Shown here: piece by piece, positions 7,564-12,253 of the stretch
How the letters are laid out: the number at the start of each line of letters is the position of its first letter
Position numbering within the stretch: the first letter of the stretch is position 1
Origin: Lachnospiraceae bacterium
GTDB lineage: Bacteria > Bacillota > Clostridia > Lachnospirales > Lachnospiraceae
Direction: 5' to 3'
Length of the DNA: 48,924 bases
Assembly (NCBI GenBank): GCA_017962825.1
Contig: JAGCUO010000013.1
Location: 1 to 48,924 of the forward strand
The notes under the pieces: model-generated
What the model was told of the DNA's origin: nothing
The model's input: the letters and a program-made list of their open reading frames with translations, nothing else
Databases searched by the model: none
Translations under genes and position numbers: made by a program

Positions 7564-7812
7564 ATGGACGAAGCTTTTATAACCGTAGATCTTCACGGTC
7601 TGAGACGTGATGAAGCGGAAAAAAGAATCGAAAAAGTACTGGCTGAAGCAGGAAGCGGTACATATCAGATACGTCTTATCCATGGGTTTAACAGGGGAAC
7701 AAACCTCAAAGAGATGATATATGACAGCTTCAGGTATGATAAGAAAGTAAAACGTATTATGCCGGGCGATAATCAGGGCATTACTATTCTTGTATTAAAA
7801 GAACTGTTTTAA
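7564..7812 (+). CDS. small Smr-domain protein
   Basis: An 82-residue stand-alone Smr domain, the small MutS-related domain found at the C-terminus of MutS2. The Smr signature is visible as VDLHGLRRDEA near the start and HGFNRGT in the middle, corresponding to the DLHG and HGxG motifs linked to nuclease or nucleic-acid binding. I chose the ATG at 7564 because a strong GGAGGAGG sits directly before it; an upstream reading from 7468 has no ribosome site and adds non-Smr sequence. There is no mutS2 nearby, so it probably acts as an independent RNA or DNA-binding factor. A terminator follows. Confidence 0.85.
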   Translation: MDEAFITVDLHGLRRDEAEKRIEKVLAEAGSGTYQIRLIHGFNRGTNLKEMIYDSFRYDKKVKRIMPGDNQGITILVLKELF

Positions 7813-7835
7813 GGATAAATCAATATAATATATTA

Positions 7836-7880
7836 AAATAAGTCAATTTCTTCGGTGGGAGAAATTGACTTATTATTTTG
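7836..7880 (+). terminator. terminator after the smr gene
   Basis: AATAAGTCAATTTCT pairs perfectly with AGAAATTGACTTATT across an 8-base loop and is followed by ATTTTG. The A/T-rich flanks would also allow function on the reverse strand. Confidence 0.85.
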
Positions 7881-7956
7881 CAAAAACCTGATAAAATCGC
7901 TATTTTAAGCCAAACCGTGTTAAAATGGGTCAATAAACGAGATTAAAATACCTCTT

Positions 7957-7972
7957 GAATTTTTAAAAATTC
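7957..7972. promoter_or_regulatory. perfect 16-bp palindrome upstream of leuA
   Basis: GAATTTTTAAAAATTC is an exact palindrome 66 bases before the leuA start. About 15-35 bases upstream lie two TTAAAAT boxes (7920-7926 and 7943-7949) spaced 23 bases apart. Together they could form an operator/promoter zone. No T-box elements are visible in this leader. Low complexity makes a chance palindrome possible. Confidence 0.35.
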
Positions 7973-8038
7973 AGTAGTATCTTAAATTCATAATTGTTCA
8001 AAGCGGATTATTTAAATATATCTGCAGAAGGAGTAATC

Positions 8039-10042
8039 ATGAATAATATCAATATCAGTGAGAAGTACAGGCCTACATATCATATGCCTCCCATTCTCAA
8101 CCATAACTGGGTCAAAAAAGACAGGATCACAAAGCCTCCCATTTGGTGCAGTGTAGATCTTCGTGACGGAAATCAGGCTCTTATCGATCCCATGAGTTTG
8201 GAGGTAAAGCTTGAGTTTTTCAAACTTCTTGTTGATGTCGGATTTAAAGAGATAGAGGTAGGATTCCCCGCTTCGTCCGATACAGAGTTCGAATTCATCA
8301 GAGCTCTTATCGATAAGAATATGATCCCGGATGATGTTACGATCCAGGTTCTTACTCAGGCTAGAGAGCACATCATCCGCAAAACCTTTGATGCCGTCAA
8401 GGGATGTCCCAAAGCTATAGTTCATCTGTATAACTCTACTTCCGTGGAACAGAGAGAACAGGTTTTCAAGAAGGATAAGCCCGAGATACTTAAAATTGCG
8501 GTTGACGGAGCCAAGCTTTTGAAAGAGCTTGCGGATGAAACCGACGGAAACTTCATGTTCGAGTACAGTCCCGAGAGCTTCTCCCAGACCGAGCCCGAAT
8601 TTGCACTTGAAGTATGTAATGCGGTTCTTGATGTATGGCAGCCCACTCCCGAGAAGAAGGCGATTATCAACCTTCCTTCAACCGTACAGGTAGCAATGCC
8701 ACATGTATTTGCGGATCAGATCGAATATATGTCCGATAACATGAAATACCGTGATGGCGTAGTGCTGTCCGTTCACCCTCACAATGACAGAGGAACGGGC
8801 GTTGCCGATGCCGAGCTCGGAGTTCTTGCAGGTGCAGACCGTGTTGAGGGTACTCTTTTCGGAAACGGTGAGAGAACCGGTAATGTCGATCTTGTAACCG
8901 TAGCCATGAACATGGTTACCCACGGTGTGGACAGCGGACTTGATTTCTCCAATATCATGAAGATCCGCGAAGCTTATGAGAGATTTACCAATATGAAGGT
9001 TCACGAGAGAACCCCTTACGGCGGAGATCTTGTATTTACCGCATTCTCCGGATCTCACCAGGATGCAATAAGCAAGGGTATGAACTACCGTGCCGAGGGC
9101 AAGACCGGTGCAAGATGGGATATTCCTTATATCCCCATCGATCCTTCGGATATCGGAAGAGAGTACGAATCCGATGTCATCCGTATCAACTCTACCTCCG
9201 GAAAGGGTGGCGTTGCATTCGTTCTCAAGCAGCAGTTCGGTTTCAGTCTTCCCGCAGCCATGAAGGAGGAGGTCGGATACCTTATGAAGGGCGTATCCGA
9301 CAGAAAGCACAAAGAGCTTAAGCCCGATGAGATGTTCTCGGTATTTGAGGATGTATATGTAACCTCAAGACCTGTATTCGATGCGACCGAAATCCACTAT
9401 AAGCAGCTCGGAAACGGCGGAATAGAAAGCTCCGTCAGCTTCAAGGACAAGAGTGGTGAGCAGAAGGTCGTAACCGTAGGAAACGGAAGACTCGACTCGG
9501 TCAGCAACGCGATCAAGCTCTATCTGGGTGTTGATTATGAACTGACCGGTTATGAGGAGCATGCAATCTCCAAGACCAGTTCCTCCAAGGCGGCTTCATA
9601 CGTAAGCGTTGTCTCCGAAGGTAAGACCTATTGGGGAGTCGGTGTAGATGAAGACATTATCAAGGCTTCCAATGCGGCTCTCGTAAGCTGTGTTAACAAA
9701 GTTGCTTCCGACCAGCACATTAACAGGGCCCGCGAGGAAAGACTTGTGGAGATCCTCACATATATCCAGAGAAATTATCAGGATGTTTCCCTTGATTCCA
9801 TGGCAGAAGAGTTCCACCTCTCCAGACCGTATCTGTCAAAATACATTAAGGAAAAGACGGGCGAAACCTTCCAGGATGTCCTCCGTATAGAAAAGCTTAA
9901 GAGGGCAAAGACCCTTCTGAAGGATACCGCCAAGACCATCGAGAACATTGCTCTTGAGGTCGGCTATGAAAATGTGGAGCATTTCAACAGGATGTTCAAG
10001 AAGACCTACGGAGTAACCCCCGTACAGTATAGAAAGCAGTAA
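8039..10042 (+). CDS. leuA: 2-isopropylmalate synthase fused to a C-terminal AraC-type HTH domain
   Basis: A 667-residue protein. Residues 1 to about 555 are a complete LeuA of the longer (about 560-residue) class: catalytic DLRDGNQA at 40-47, the metal motif HPHNDRG at 246-252, and a C-terminal leucine-sensing region ending near AALVSCVNKV. It condenses acetyl-CoA with 2-oxoisovalerate, the first step of leucine synthesis. From about residue 564 to the end comes an AraC/XylS domain with two helix-turn-helix units (SLDSMAEEFHLSRPYLSKYIKE, shortened here to its core SMAEEFHLSRPYL, and IALEVGYENVEHFNRMFKK) ending in the typical GVTPVQYRK. The frame is continuous, with no stop or shift at the joint. 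Start ATG 8039 has AGAAGGAG before it; a longer reading from 7994 does not. A direct leucine-responsive transcription factor is inferred, not known. Confidence 0.93.
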   Translation: MNNINISEKYRPTYHMPPILNHNWVKKDRITKPPIWCSVDLRDGNQALIDPMSLEVKLEFFKLLVDVGFKEIEVGFPASSDTEFEFIRALIDKNMIPDDVTIQVLTQAREHIIRKTFDAVKGCPKAIVHLYNSTSVEQREQVFKKDKPEILKIAVDGAKLLKELADETDGNFMFEYSPESFSQTEPEFALEVCNAVLDVWQPTPEKKAIINLPSTVQVAMPHVFADQIEYMSDNMKYRDGVVLSVHPHNDRGTGVADAELGVLAGADRVEGTLFGNGERTGNVDLVTVAMNMVTHGVDSGLDFSNIMKIREAYERFTNMKVHERTPYGGDLVFTAFSGSHQDAISKGMNYRAEGKTGARWDIPYIPIDPSDIGREYESDVIRINSTSGKGGVAFVLKQQFGFSLPAAMKEEVGYLMKGVSDRKHKELKPDEMFSVFEDVYVTSRPVFDATEIHYKQLGNGGIESSVSFKDKSGEQKVVTVGNGRLDSVSNAIKLYLGVDYELTGYEEHAISKTSSSKAASYVSVVSEGKTYWGVGVDEDIIKASNAALVSCVNKVASDQHINRAREERLVEILTYIQRNYQDVSLDSMAEEFHLSRPYLSKYIKEKTGETFQDVLRIEKLKRAKTLLKDTAKTIENIALEVGYENVEHFNRMFKKTYGVTPVQYRKQ

Positions 10043-10065: not shown

Positions 10066-10103
10066 ACGACCCTCGGACCGGATGGTCCGAAGGTCGTTTT
10101 ACT
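10066..10103 (+). terminator. terminator after leuA
   Basis: ACGACC-CTCGGACC and GGTCCGA-AGGTCGT form a long hairpin with a small mismatch, followed by TTTTA. It isolates leuA from the XRE/ATP-grasp region. Confidence 0.88.
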
Positions 10104-10575: not shown

Positions 10576-11448
10576 TTGAAAGGCTGGTTAATAGTAAATT
10601 CTTTTGTAAAATGGGATAAGTTCAGTGAGATCTATACGTTGCTCCTTGAAGCCGGTAAGAAGGTGGGAGTTGAGCTTGAGCTTAAGACTTCCTCCGATAT
10701 TCTCTGCAGCGTTCAGAGCAGATTTTCAGAATATGAACTCCCTGATTTCGGAATATTCTGGGACAAGGATATTCTTCTGGCATCACGTCTCGAGAAGATG
10801 GGACTCAGGCTTTTTAATTCATCTCAGAGCATCGAAGCCTGTGATGATAAAGGTCAGACAGCCATTGCTCTCGTAGATGGCGGGATCAGGACTCCCAAGA
10901 CCTTTTTGTCCCCCAAGGCGTATCCCACTTTCGGTTGTACCGATATGACATTTCTCCGAATGGCGGAGGAAGAGCTGGGTTATCCCATGATCATCAAGGA
11001 AAACCGGGGTTCATTCGGACAGCAGGTTCATCTGGTGAAGAGTTCATATGAGGCTGAAGTCCTTATAAAATCATTTAAAGAACATCCTTTTATAATGCAG
11101 GAATACATAGAAGAGTCTTCCGGAAGGGATGTAAGGATCAATGTTGTCGGAGACAGGGTGGTGGCTTCGATGTACAGATATAATGACAATGATTTCCGCT
11201 CAAATATCACAGGCGGCGGGAGCATGAAGAGCTTTACCGCTGACAAAGAGCAGGAAGAACTGGCTATTGCTGCGTGTAAGGCGCTGGGGCTGGACTTCGC
11301 GGGAGTTGATGTCCTTTTCGGAAAAGAAGGACCGATCATTTGTGAGGTAAATTCCAACCCTCATTTCAAAACTACGCTGGAATGCACCGGCATAAACATG
11401 GCCGAGCACATAATCAGTTATATAAAAGAGTACATGGATGAAAGATAA
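10576..11448 (+). CDS. RimK-like ATP-grasp ligase (first of tandem pair)
   Basis: A 290-residue ATP-grasp protein of the RimK (alpha-L-glutamate ligase) family. ATP-binding features include MIIKENRGSFGQQV (Lys for phosphate, Gly-rich loop) around residues 138-152, FIMQEYIEES, the basic GRDVRINVVGDRVVASM segment, and the metal-binding CEVNSNPHF near residue 260. Start is TTG at 10576 after AGGAAGGGATAAGG. Such enzymes join amino acids to a carboxylate on a protein, peptide or cofactor (for example RimK on ribosomal S6, CofF, LysX). It overlaps the next ATP-grasp gene by 11 bases, so the pair is translationally coupled. Which substrate they use is unknown. Confidence 0.88.
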   Translation: MKGWLIVNSFVKWDKFSEIYTLLLEAGKKVGVELELKTSSDILCSVQSRFSEYELPDFGIFWDKDILLASRLEKMGLRLFNSSQSIEACDDKGQTAIALVDGGIRTPKTFLSPKAYPTFGCTDMTFLRMAEEELGYPMIIKENRGSFGQQVHLVKSSYEAEVLIKSFKEHPFIMQEYIEESSGRDVRINVVGDRVVASMYRYNDNDFRSNITGGGSMKSFTADKEQEELAIAACKALGLDFAGVDVLFGKEGPIICEVNSNPHFKTTLECTGINMAEHIISYIKEYMDER

Positions 11449-12253
11449 CAGAGCGCTTCTGGTATATTTTGAAGCGGACATTGAAAAGAACAGATGGTTC
11501 ATAGACAGACTGACAGACATAGCAGCCGGAAGAGGAATCAGGCTTGATCTGGTAACTCCATGGCAGGCGTTTGATGAAACTGAAGCGGCCTTTGTGATAA
11601 ACAGATCAAGGGATGAAGAGGTTTCAAGGTATTTCGAAGGTCTCGGCATCAAGAGTTTCAATAATTCGGAAACCGTCAGGATCGGAAATGATAAGCTGGA
11701 AGAGTATTACCTTTTTCAGGAACTTGGATTGCCCGCTATGGAAACGGTAACCGGTGATACGCCCCGGGAAGATATCCTGTTTTCTGCGCCATATATCGTA
11801 AAGCACAGAAGGGGCCACGGCGGGAACAGGGTATTCAAGGCCGAAAAGTATGAGGAAGTCCGTGAGATCATAAGAGGGCTGAATCCTTCTGAGTGGATAA
11901 TCCAAAAAATGTGCGATACCCCCGGAAAGGATATGCGTCTTTATATTCTCGGCGGCAAAGTAGTGGCATCGGTAATTCGAACTTCAAAGAAGGATTTCAG
12001 AAGTAATTTCAGTCTCGGGGGCGAGGCTGTTCTTGCGGATCCTCCCGAAGAGGTTGTGAAAATGGCACTCAAACTGTCGGATTATCTTCTGTCGGATTAT
12101 TTTGCCGTTGACGTGATCAGAGACCACGGAATGTGGATCGTGAATGAGATCGAGGATGCCGCAGGAGCAAGGATGCTTTACAGCCTCACAGACCTTGACA
12201 TAGCTGAAATGTATATGAGTCATATTATCGAAAAATCTTCCCAAAAGCAGTAA
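11438..12253 (+). CDS. RimK-like ATP-grasp ligase (second of tandem pair)
   Basis: A 271-residue ATP-grasp protein, clearly related to its upstream neighbour but diverged. It keeps the nucleotide-loop region YIVKHRRGHGGNRVF, the GKDMRLYILGGKVVASV basic segment and DFRSNFSLGG. At the metal site, where RimK enzymes have E-x-N-x-x-P-G, this protein reads EIEDAAG, so the usual Asn is replaced by Glu and the Pro is lost. The start overlaps the preceding gene by 11 bases, with no strong ribosome site, consistent with coupling. It may be a ligase with altered metal handling or a partner/regulatory subunit of the first enzyme. Confidence 0.83.
   Translation: MKDNRALLVYFEADIEKNRWFIDRLTDIAAGRGIRLDLVTPWQAFDETEAAFVINRSRDEEVSRYFEGLGIKSFNNSETVRIGNDKLEEYYLFQELGLPAMETVTGDTPREDILFSAPYIVKHRRGHGGNRVFKAEKYEEVREIIRGLNPSEWIIQKMCDTPGKDMRLYILGGKVVASVIRTSKKDFRSNFSLGGEAVLADPPEEVVKMALKLSDYLLSDYFAVDVIRDHGMWIVNEIEDAAGARMLYSLTDLDIAEMYMSHIIEKSSQKQ

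Follow-up and report, generated by a model that had tools for sequence, protein, structure and literature searches.

We describe here a gene in which a 2-isopropylmalate synthase, LeuA, is joined to an AraC-type DNA-binding domain. The gene lies on a 48,924-nucleotide stretch of DNA from a Lachnospiraceae bacterium (contig JAGCUO010000013.1 of assembly GCA_017962825.1, referred to here as the window), and upstream of it stands a tandem direct repeat, TTAAAATAnATCAA-N9-TTAAAAT, with a period of 23 bp. We consider it quite likely that the fused protein combines functional 2-isopropylmalate synthase activity with DNA-binding control of its own gene, exerted through this repeat; one protein would then probably both make leucine precursors and adjust the gene that encodes it. 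Comparison of sequences establishes the fusion, its conservation, the site, the match between DNA-binding domain and site, and the position of the site at the promoter.

The fused gene runs from 8039 to 10042 on the + strand, and translation of this uninterrupted frame gives 667 residues with zero internal stops ahead of the TAA at 10040-10042. An earlier, sequence-only reading of the window had proposed that this one frame holds a complete LeuA and a full AraC double helix-turn-helix (HTH), and the family searches agree: all Pfam-A matches of the fusion exceed their curated cut-offs and occur in the order HMGL-like, IPMS_D2, LeuA_dimer and then HTH, and the NCBIfam model PRK03739 for 2-isopropylmalate synthase scores 790.8 bits against a cut-off of 455. 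The HMGL-like catalytic domain (residues 35-311, 8141-8971, +) contains DLRDGNQ, HPHND and GNGERTGN, which we take to be the catalytic and metal motifs of LeuA; they are identical in all 33 representative fusions (a set under 90% identity, drawn from 83 distinct fusions), except at P247, which is kept in 32 of 33. It is followed by the post-catalytic domain IPMS_D2 (residues 330-397, 9026-9229, +) and by the allosteric domain LeuA_dimer (residues 426-555, 9314-9703, +), where each position of GNGRLD and YEEH is kept in 32 or 33 of the 33 representatives. GNGxL and YEEH presumably mark the leucine site of the dimer domain. The presence of catalytic, metal and leucine-region motifs, as claimed from the sequence alone, thus holds across 32-33 of 33 representatives. 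The earlier statement that the HTH comes immediately after the leucine domain has to be amended, as residues 556-587 (9704-9799, +) lie between the two and form a linker whose length is constant among the representatives compared. The HTH itself (HTH_18, residues 588-667, 9800-10039, +) scores 81.0 bits against a cut-off of 33.6 and covers profile positions 1-80 of 80, with an HTH_AraC match at residues 628-666; in a search of solved structures by sequence it matches SoxS, MarA, Rob and AraC chains. In the draft genome from which the window comes (G000; 3.03 Mb, 204 contigs, 81% complete) the fusion is the only LeuA found and stands alongside leuB, leuC-like genes and ilvC, and for this reason the fused enzyme is probably the working LeuA. 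These observations suggest that 2-isopropylmalate synthase activity is probably retained by the fused protein.

The fusion recurs well beyond the window. In the genus sample, 27 of 31 genomes encode it at full length and without interruption, and neither a stop nor a frameshift, either of which the sequence-only reading had named as fatal to its proposal, is found at the joint in these 27. In the four remaining genomes the gene is cut by a contig start (G007), the HTH is out of frame (G023), the match ends at residue 370 (G028) or no LeuA match was obtained (G013). Fusion counts in the wider samples are lower bounds taken over the roughly 150 best-scoring places: by hand count at least 89 of 397 family genomes carry a full-length, stop-free fusion, 87 of them at 58-76% identity, with some LeuA match at E<=1e-60 in 363 of the 397; in the order sample the fusion occurs in at least 17 of 295 genomes, all 17 from the family of the window among the matches listed; and in the class sample it occurs in at least 13 of 391, three of which (G901, G767 and G903) lie outside the family and the order. 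Among the carriers with a name are Faecalicatena contorta ET55, Dorea sp. 5-2, Sporofaciens musculi and two cultured rumen strains, P6A3 and AC2028. The architecture is therefore present in other genomes, whose lack the earlier reading had listed as a second objection, and a single-genome oddity is ruled out. An assembly chimera or frameshift at the joint is likewise ruled out by the intact fusion in many genomes; as so many of the family genomes have it and the linker length is constant, the fusion is not an assembly accident.

The sequence of the HTH is kept with the enzyme. Stretch 556-588 is 33 residues long in all 33 representatives, which are 62-90% identical to the window protein, and helix 3 (PYxSKYI) and helix 6 (GYxNVEHFNRxFKK) are almost invariant. 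The recognition-helix residues S600, K601, I603, G642, Y643, E647, F649, R651 and F653, some of which we assume to touch DNA, are identical in 33 of 33, and the loss of recognition residues raised as a third objection did not materialize. The ratio of non-synonymous to synonymous substitution rates (dN/dS) is 0.006-0.10 for the HTH and 0.005-0.040 for the catalytic part in the seven usable of nine pairs, the HTH value lying between half and about three times the catalytic one, with synonymous sites near saturation in most pairs. These comparisons support purifying selection on the HTH.

The tandem repeat was first spotted by eye in the upstream sequences, and the pattern [AT]TAAA[AT][AT]...TCA was chosen afterwards; it occurs in 46 of 65 non-redundant upstreams, against a maximum of 4 in shuffles. 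Gibbs sampling of these 65 upstreams from random starts returned tTAAAAtAaATCAAgaAAAntGATTAAAaT, with two direct half-sites 23 bp apart; of the three runs at width 38, two scored 23.6-23.7 bits and the third 16.5. Using a weight matrix trained without the group with T-box leaders, without the split genes and without any of the three fusions from beyond the order, a site scoring at least 12 was found within 1400 bp in 58 of 65 upstreams, compared with 1 of 325 shuffled 700-bp upstreams. The locus L128, with 47 bp of upstream sequence, is not among the 65. In the window, motif search places the proximal operator at 7920-7957 (+), with TTAAAAT half-sites at 7920 and 7943, 23 bp apart, and 7920-7949 has zero mismatches to the two-half-site pattern. 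The tandem pattern matches three times in the window where 0.1 are expected, each time ahead of the fused gene; a half-site on its own does not exceed chance there (7 matches, 6.9 expected).

The position of the operator is that of a promoter element. Half-site 2 adjoins a putative -35 box, TTGAAT (7955-7960, +), and a putative -10 box, TATCTT (7978-7983, +), lies 17 bp from the -35 and 58 bp from the start of the operator; both are read from the sequence. Across the sites, 25 of 58 sequences have their best -10-like hexamer of a 40-bp range at an offset of 58-60 from where the site starts. Activators of the AraC type that work from a class II position sit abutting the -35 region. The -35 of the window genus is a fair TTGAAT or TTGATT, and in many other lineages we read a -35 region far from TTGACA (for example ACTTTCC) together with an extended -10 at a fixed distance. 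By pattern match and upstream alignment, a distal tandem operator is located at 7810-7847 (+), 110 bp upstream of the proximal one; it is recognisable in most of 13 aligned genus upstreams, and in G015 and G023 a second operator stands 110 and 111 bp away. A loop between the distal and proximal operators is possible in the window genus. The distal operator overlaps the left arm of a perfect 15-bp inverted repeat with an 8-nt loop (7837-7874) that precedes the leuA promoter. This inverted repeat probably serves the preceding gene as terminator, since its stem seems, by eye, to be kept in relatives through paired changes. At another locus, L373, a second and weaker operator-like repeat (score 18.7) lies in the leader about 55 bp before the start, and similar stretches were seen by eye in Dorea-like relatives.

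If the fused HTH reads this site, the two should come and go together. Among 64 rows of a LeuA tree, 34 have both the HTH and the site, 28 have neither, two have the HTH without the site (L128, with its 47 bp of upstream sequence only, and L035) and none has the site without the HTH (Fisher 4e-16, kinship ignored). All fusions fall in one 46-row group (99/92) together with ten HTH-less LeuAs and two split ones, and each of the ten HTH-less members of this clade is without a site. The HTH distribution on the tree needs eight changes, fewer than any of 500 shuffles, and a single gain followed by losses is compatible with the tree, the order of gain and loss being unproven. Of 29 LeuAs initially classed as unfused, three carry the site, and each of these retains HTH sequence: in G091 and G108 it lies in another frame, and in G192 it is truncated where the contig stops. 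All three fusions from beyond the order carry the site too, with scores of 30-37. Four fusion carriers also encode a second, HTH-less LeuA (G052 and G625 in the order sample, G901 and G767 in the class sample), and those of G052 and G901 are without an operator site.

Two observations on this tree stand apart. In G091 (L345) and G108 (L354) leuA is followed directly by an intact HTH in another frame, in G108 with the frame change at a run of A; these are split genes, slippage or assembly errors. Eight of the ten HTH-less LeuAs inside the fused clade sit on long branches of 0.40-0.63 (L343, L348-L351 and L358-L360, the value for L358 and L360 being that of their shared branch), giving the impression of a quicker-evolving enzyme where the domain is missing; the HTH-less L344 and L347 are shorter (0.27 and 0.37), and the HTH-bearing L365 and L354 are also long (0.5 and 0.48).

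Some fused genes carry a further leader element. An Rfam T-box leader was found upstream of the fused gene in 9 of 30 fused loci scanned and also at L370 and L371, and wherever a longer scan was made the operator was located above the T-box. The specifier, read from the alignments, is the leucine codon CUC in L127, L370 and L371. In L127, L370, L371 and L084, leuA is preceded by the DNA operator and, below it, the T-box leader. A scan of 300 bp had suggested T-box-bearing fused genes without a site, an idea that was dropped once the longer scan located the site upstream of the T-box.

The sequence-only reading had also proposed to look for conserved motifs upstream of leu and ilv genes. The motif is present at the leuA promoter; at other genes of the pathway the evidence is moderate and confined to some lineages, and in the window genome it is found at leuA only. 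With up to three mismatches, TNAAAATANATCAANNNNNNTGATTAAA matches 77 times in a set of 30 genomes with the fusion and 45 times in 30 fusion-less genomes; at 0-2 mismatches there are 18 matches in the fused set, 15 of them at the fusion promoter, and 2 in total in the fusion-less set. A branched-chain amino-acid gene lies within 600 bp downstream of a non-leuA match in 8 of 53 cases in the fused set compared with 0 of 45 in the control (p 0.007). These eight matches precede leuB (G185, G013), ilvD (G001, G017), ilvN-ilvC (G227), ilvB (G220) and, both in G185, a livJ-like transporter gene and a porC/porD pair of the pyruvate/2-ketoisovalerate family. Searches against protein families bear out the gene assignments at L270, L272, L274, L276 and L277, with livJ below its curated cut-off, and the ilvB behind ilvD at L275; the ilvD and leuB genes at L275, L179 and L159 were identified by similarity search alone. 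In the ilvC test, which used 28 of 30 loci and left out the weaker second ilvC-like loci L313 and L314, a half-site scoring at least 12 precedes ilvC in 5 of 28 fused genomes and 0 of 28 controls, at about the same distance as the site before ilvN in G227. We regard the case for the same site at other leu and ilv genes in some lineages, as judged from these matches, as moderate. Lineages in which more than one candidate target occurs are represented by G185, G227 and G311. The loci L282 (G261) and L283 (G220) have identical open reading frame starts, site and locus coordinates across two genera, like a recently transferred segment.

Several points weigh against this interpretation, both at leuA and beyond it. 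Where its branches are well supported, the tree offers only four independent pairs; they agree almost every time, but four are too few to reach p<0.05. Training of the weight matrix used 27 hand-picked sites from fusion upstreams, which makes the scores of these upstreams partly circular, and L035, L042 and L047 reach a score of 12 in neither measure although upstream sequence is present. For a two-fold LeuA dimer to read a direct repeat, a flexible or asymmetric arm is needed. Away from leuA, the reversed pattern gives 33 matches in the fused set and 28 in the unfused one (hand sums), so that most matches there are background. The fused set includes G013, a genus draft in which no LeuA was found, and this genome supplies one positive each to the leuB/leuC, ilvC and other-target counts; without it the other targets number 7 of 52 against 0 of 45 (p 0.014), and leu/ilv genes alone 5 of 52 against 0 of 45 (p 0.06). 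Both porC and livJ were taken up as queries only once the matches were known, and because several of the genomes are close relatives the independent count is smaller still. Without G013, G091 and G108, ilvC half-sites fall to 4 of 27 against 0 of 26 (p 0.11); at a score of 10 they are five in the fused set and five in the control, and the full site at 12 occurs in 2 fused genomes and 1 control, the latter being G091 with its split gene. Upstreams of leuB reach p<=0.05 in 6 of 29, where one of the 29 loci, L209, is a cut gene with the wrong upstream. For leuC the figures are 1 of 26 with the full site and 2 of 26 with the half-site, and leuC was rejected as a general target on these numbers. 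In the window genome, two operator patterns match the leuA promoter and no other promoter, and hence for the window species a self-regulating enzyme is supported and a regulon is not.

In order to picture how such a protein could work, we propose that the LeuA dimer presents two AraC-type HTHs, on linkers of fixed length, to the two half-sites, and that the HTH pair would bind TTAAAATAnATCAA-N9-TTAAAAT just upstream of the leuA -35 box. The leucine-free dimer would most likely activate transcription from this class II position, and leucine, as the presumed ligand of the LeuA_dimer domain, would shut off catalysis and activation together. Further probable binding places of the fusion protein, in some lineages, are leuB-ilvD, ilvN-ilvC, ilvB and a gene for a branched-chain amino-acid transporter. 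A fuller version, in which one protein forms a complete feedback loop with operator looping, the T-box as a second sensor and a single origin with losses, we put forward tentatively, its chances being somewhat less than even. Leucine binding would here stop catalysis and DNA activation by one movement, and the two tandem operators 110 bp apart would let LeuA dimers loop the promoter in the window genus. In some lineages free leucine, through LeuA-AraC at initiation, and charged tRNA-Leu, through the T-box at elongation, would control the same gene. On this view the fusion would have originated a single time, close to the root of a large group of Lachnospiraceae, spread to a few further families and disappeared several times together with its operator.

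It is improbable, in our judgement, that a different regulator, such as an AraC protein standing by itself, recognises the site while the fused HTH serves some other role such as oligomerisation. The genome G000 does encode more proteins of the AraC type (19 additional HTH matches), half-sites of AraC proteins are short and rich in A+T, and the stand-alone SAV742 binds the leuA2, leuC, ilvB1 and ilvC promoters of Streptomyces avermitilis (PMC5107987). A separate regulator would not, however, be expected to vanish with the fused domain, and the site is found in 0 of 28 HTH-less leuA genes, ten of them inside the fused clade; the recognition-helix residues invariant in 33 of 33 and the site at all three fusions outside the order point the same way. 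Still less credible is a passive HTH, left by a chance-fixed fusion without a regulatory role. The HTH-less LeuAs within the fused clade tell us that the HTH can be lost while LeuA stays, but where present it has a dN/dS of 0.006-0.10 (seven pairs, synonymous sites near saturation) and nearly invariant helices 3 and 6, and the matching DNA site occurs only with it.

More open to debate are the signal and the direction of control. The signal may be a pathway intermediate bound in the catalytic site (2-isopropylmalate, 2-ketoisovalerate or acetyl-CoA), as with yeast Leu3, a possibility we take seriously while judging it clearly less probable than its opposite. The catalytic motifs are intact, the ilv genes, which feed the substrate, may share the site in some lineages, and Leu3p with alpha-isopropylmalate is a known pair (PMC2930855). 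On the other hand, the HTH follows the leucine-binding dimer domain, in which GNGRLD and YEEH are conserved among 32-33 of the 33 representatives. Repression in place of activation, whereby the bound and perhaps leucine-bound protein blocks the -35 and the distal operator forms a loop, seems to us rather unlikely, if less so than a second regulator. Half-site 2 does adjoin the -35 box, which is a fair TTGAAT/TTGATT in the window genus, and this genus has its second operator 110 bp upstream; araBAD has comparable repression-loop sites. Many other lineages, in contrast, combine a poor -35 with an extended -10 at a fixed distance, and this combination is the usual mark of an activator-dependent promoter. 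A self-regulating LeuA that activates its own promoter remains the account we prefer.

Single polypeptides that are both a metabolic enzyme and a transcriptional regulator of their own pathway are known from PutA and BirA (PMC6978683). Like these trigger enzymes, the fusion would have enzyme and regulator in one chain; here the enzyme is a different one, the biosynthetic enzyme of the committed step, and the putative regulator part is a C-terminal AraC HTH. The DNA-binding folds of PutA and BirA differ from the AraC HTH. In Ada of Escherichia coli an AraC-type HTH is joined to a catalytic domain and regulates its own gene, yet there the suicidal methyl transfer is itself the signal, whereas LeuA turns over its substrates and has an allosteric domain. 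AraC at araBAD/araC offers a similar layout, with direct-repeat half-sites by the -35, a distal operator and a dimeric ligand domain, linker and double HTH; in the fusion the ligand domain is a whole enzyme, and its sites are A+T-rich and 23 bp apart. The closest solved LeuA by sequence is 1sr9, which we take to be the 2-isopropylmalate synthase of Mycobacterium tuberculosis; residues 9-523 align with 522.8 bits and 517-556 weakly. It is without an HTH, and the match to its 644-residue chain ends at 643, which corresponds to fusion residue 556, the start of the linker. Yeast Leu3 is a separate zinc-cluster protein and is not fused to an enzyme. It ties the transcription of leucine genes to alpha-isopropylmalate (PMC2930855). 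The AraC family member SAV742 of Streptomyces avermitilis binds the promoters of leuA2, leuC, ilvB1 and ilvC and represses these genes (PMC5107987). SAV742 is a separate regulator, not joined to LeuA, whereas the fusion carries the AraC domain on LeuA. T-box leaders read tRNA charging by anti-termination (PMC2494555); a leucine T-box controls amino-acid genes at the RNA level, whereas the operator of the fusion would act at the promoter. The sequence-only reading knew of no description of this combination, and we too found no LeuA-AraC-domain protein described in the open-licence full text of PubMed Central, subscription journals and preprints being outside that scope. Enzymes that regulate transcription are already known; what seems to be new here is LeuA joined to an AraC domain.

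Around the fused gene, sequence reading gives a ribosome-binding site, AGAAGGAG (8026-8033, +), ahead of the ATG at 8039, and a consensus match gives a terminator-like stem-loop 3' of the gene (10073-10090, +), which is not above shuffles. Further downstream, at 10576-12253, two overlapping neighbour genes resemble ATP-grasp ligases of the RimK kind, a likeness taken from reading, without a family search. The G000 draft has two leuC-like genes (C110:2745 and C117:152916), reflecting duplication or contamination.

Amino-acid pathways usually rely for feedback on two parties, an allosteric enzyme and either a regulator separate from it or an RNA. Across a large group of bacteria from gut and rumen, the enzyme of the first committed step seems to take on both roles, which would make the fusion a clean test case for how an allosteric enzyme becomes a transcription factor. 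The repeated joint absence of domain and operator within one clade is an evolutionary control that few regulators offer. For the Lachnospiraceae, the analysis provides a predicted leuA operator together with candidate targets at other branched-chain amino-acid genes, and the fused protein may be a natural leucine-responsive switch.

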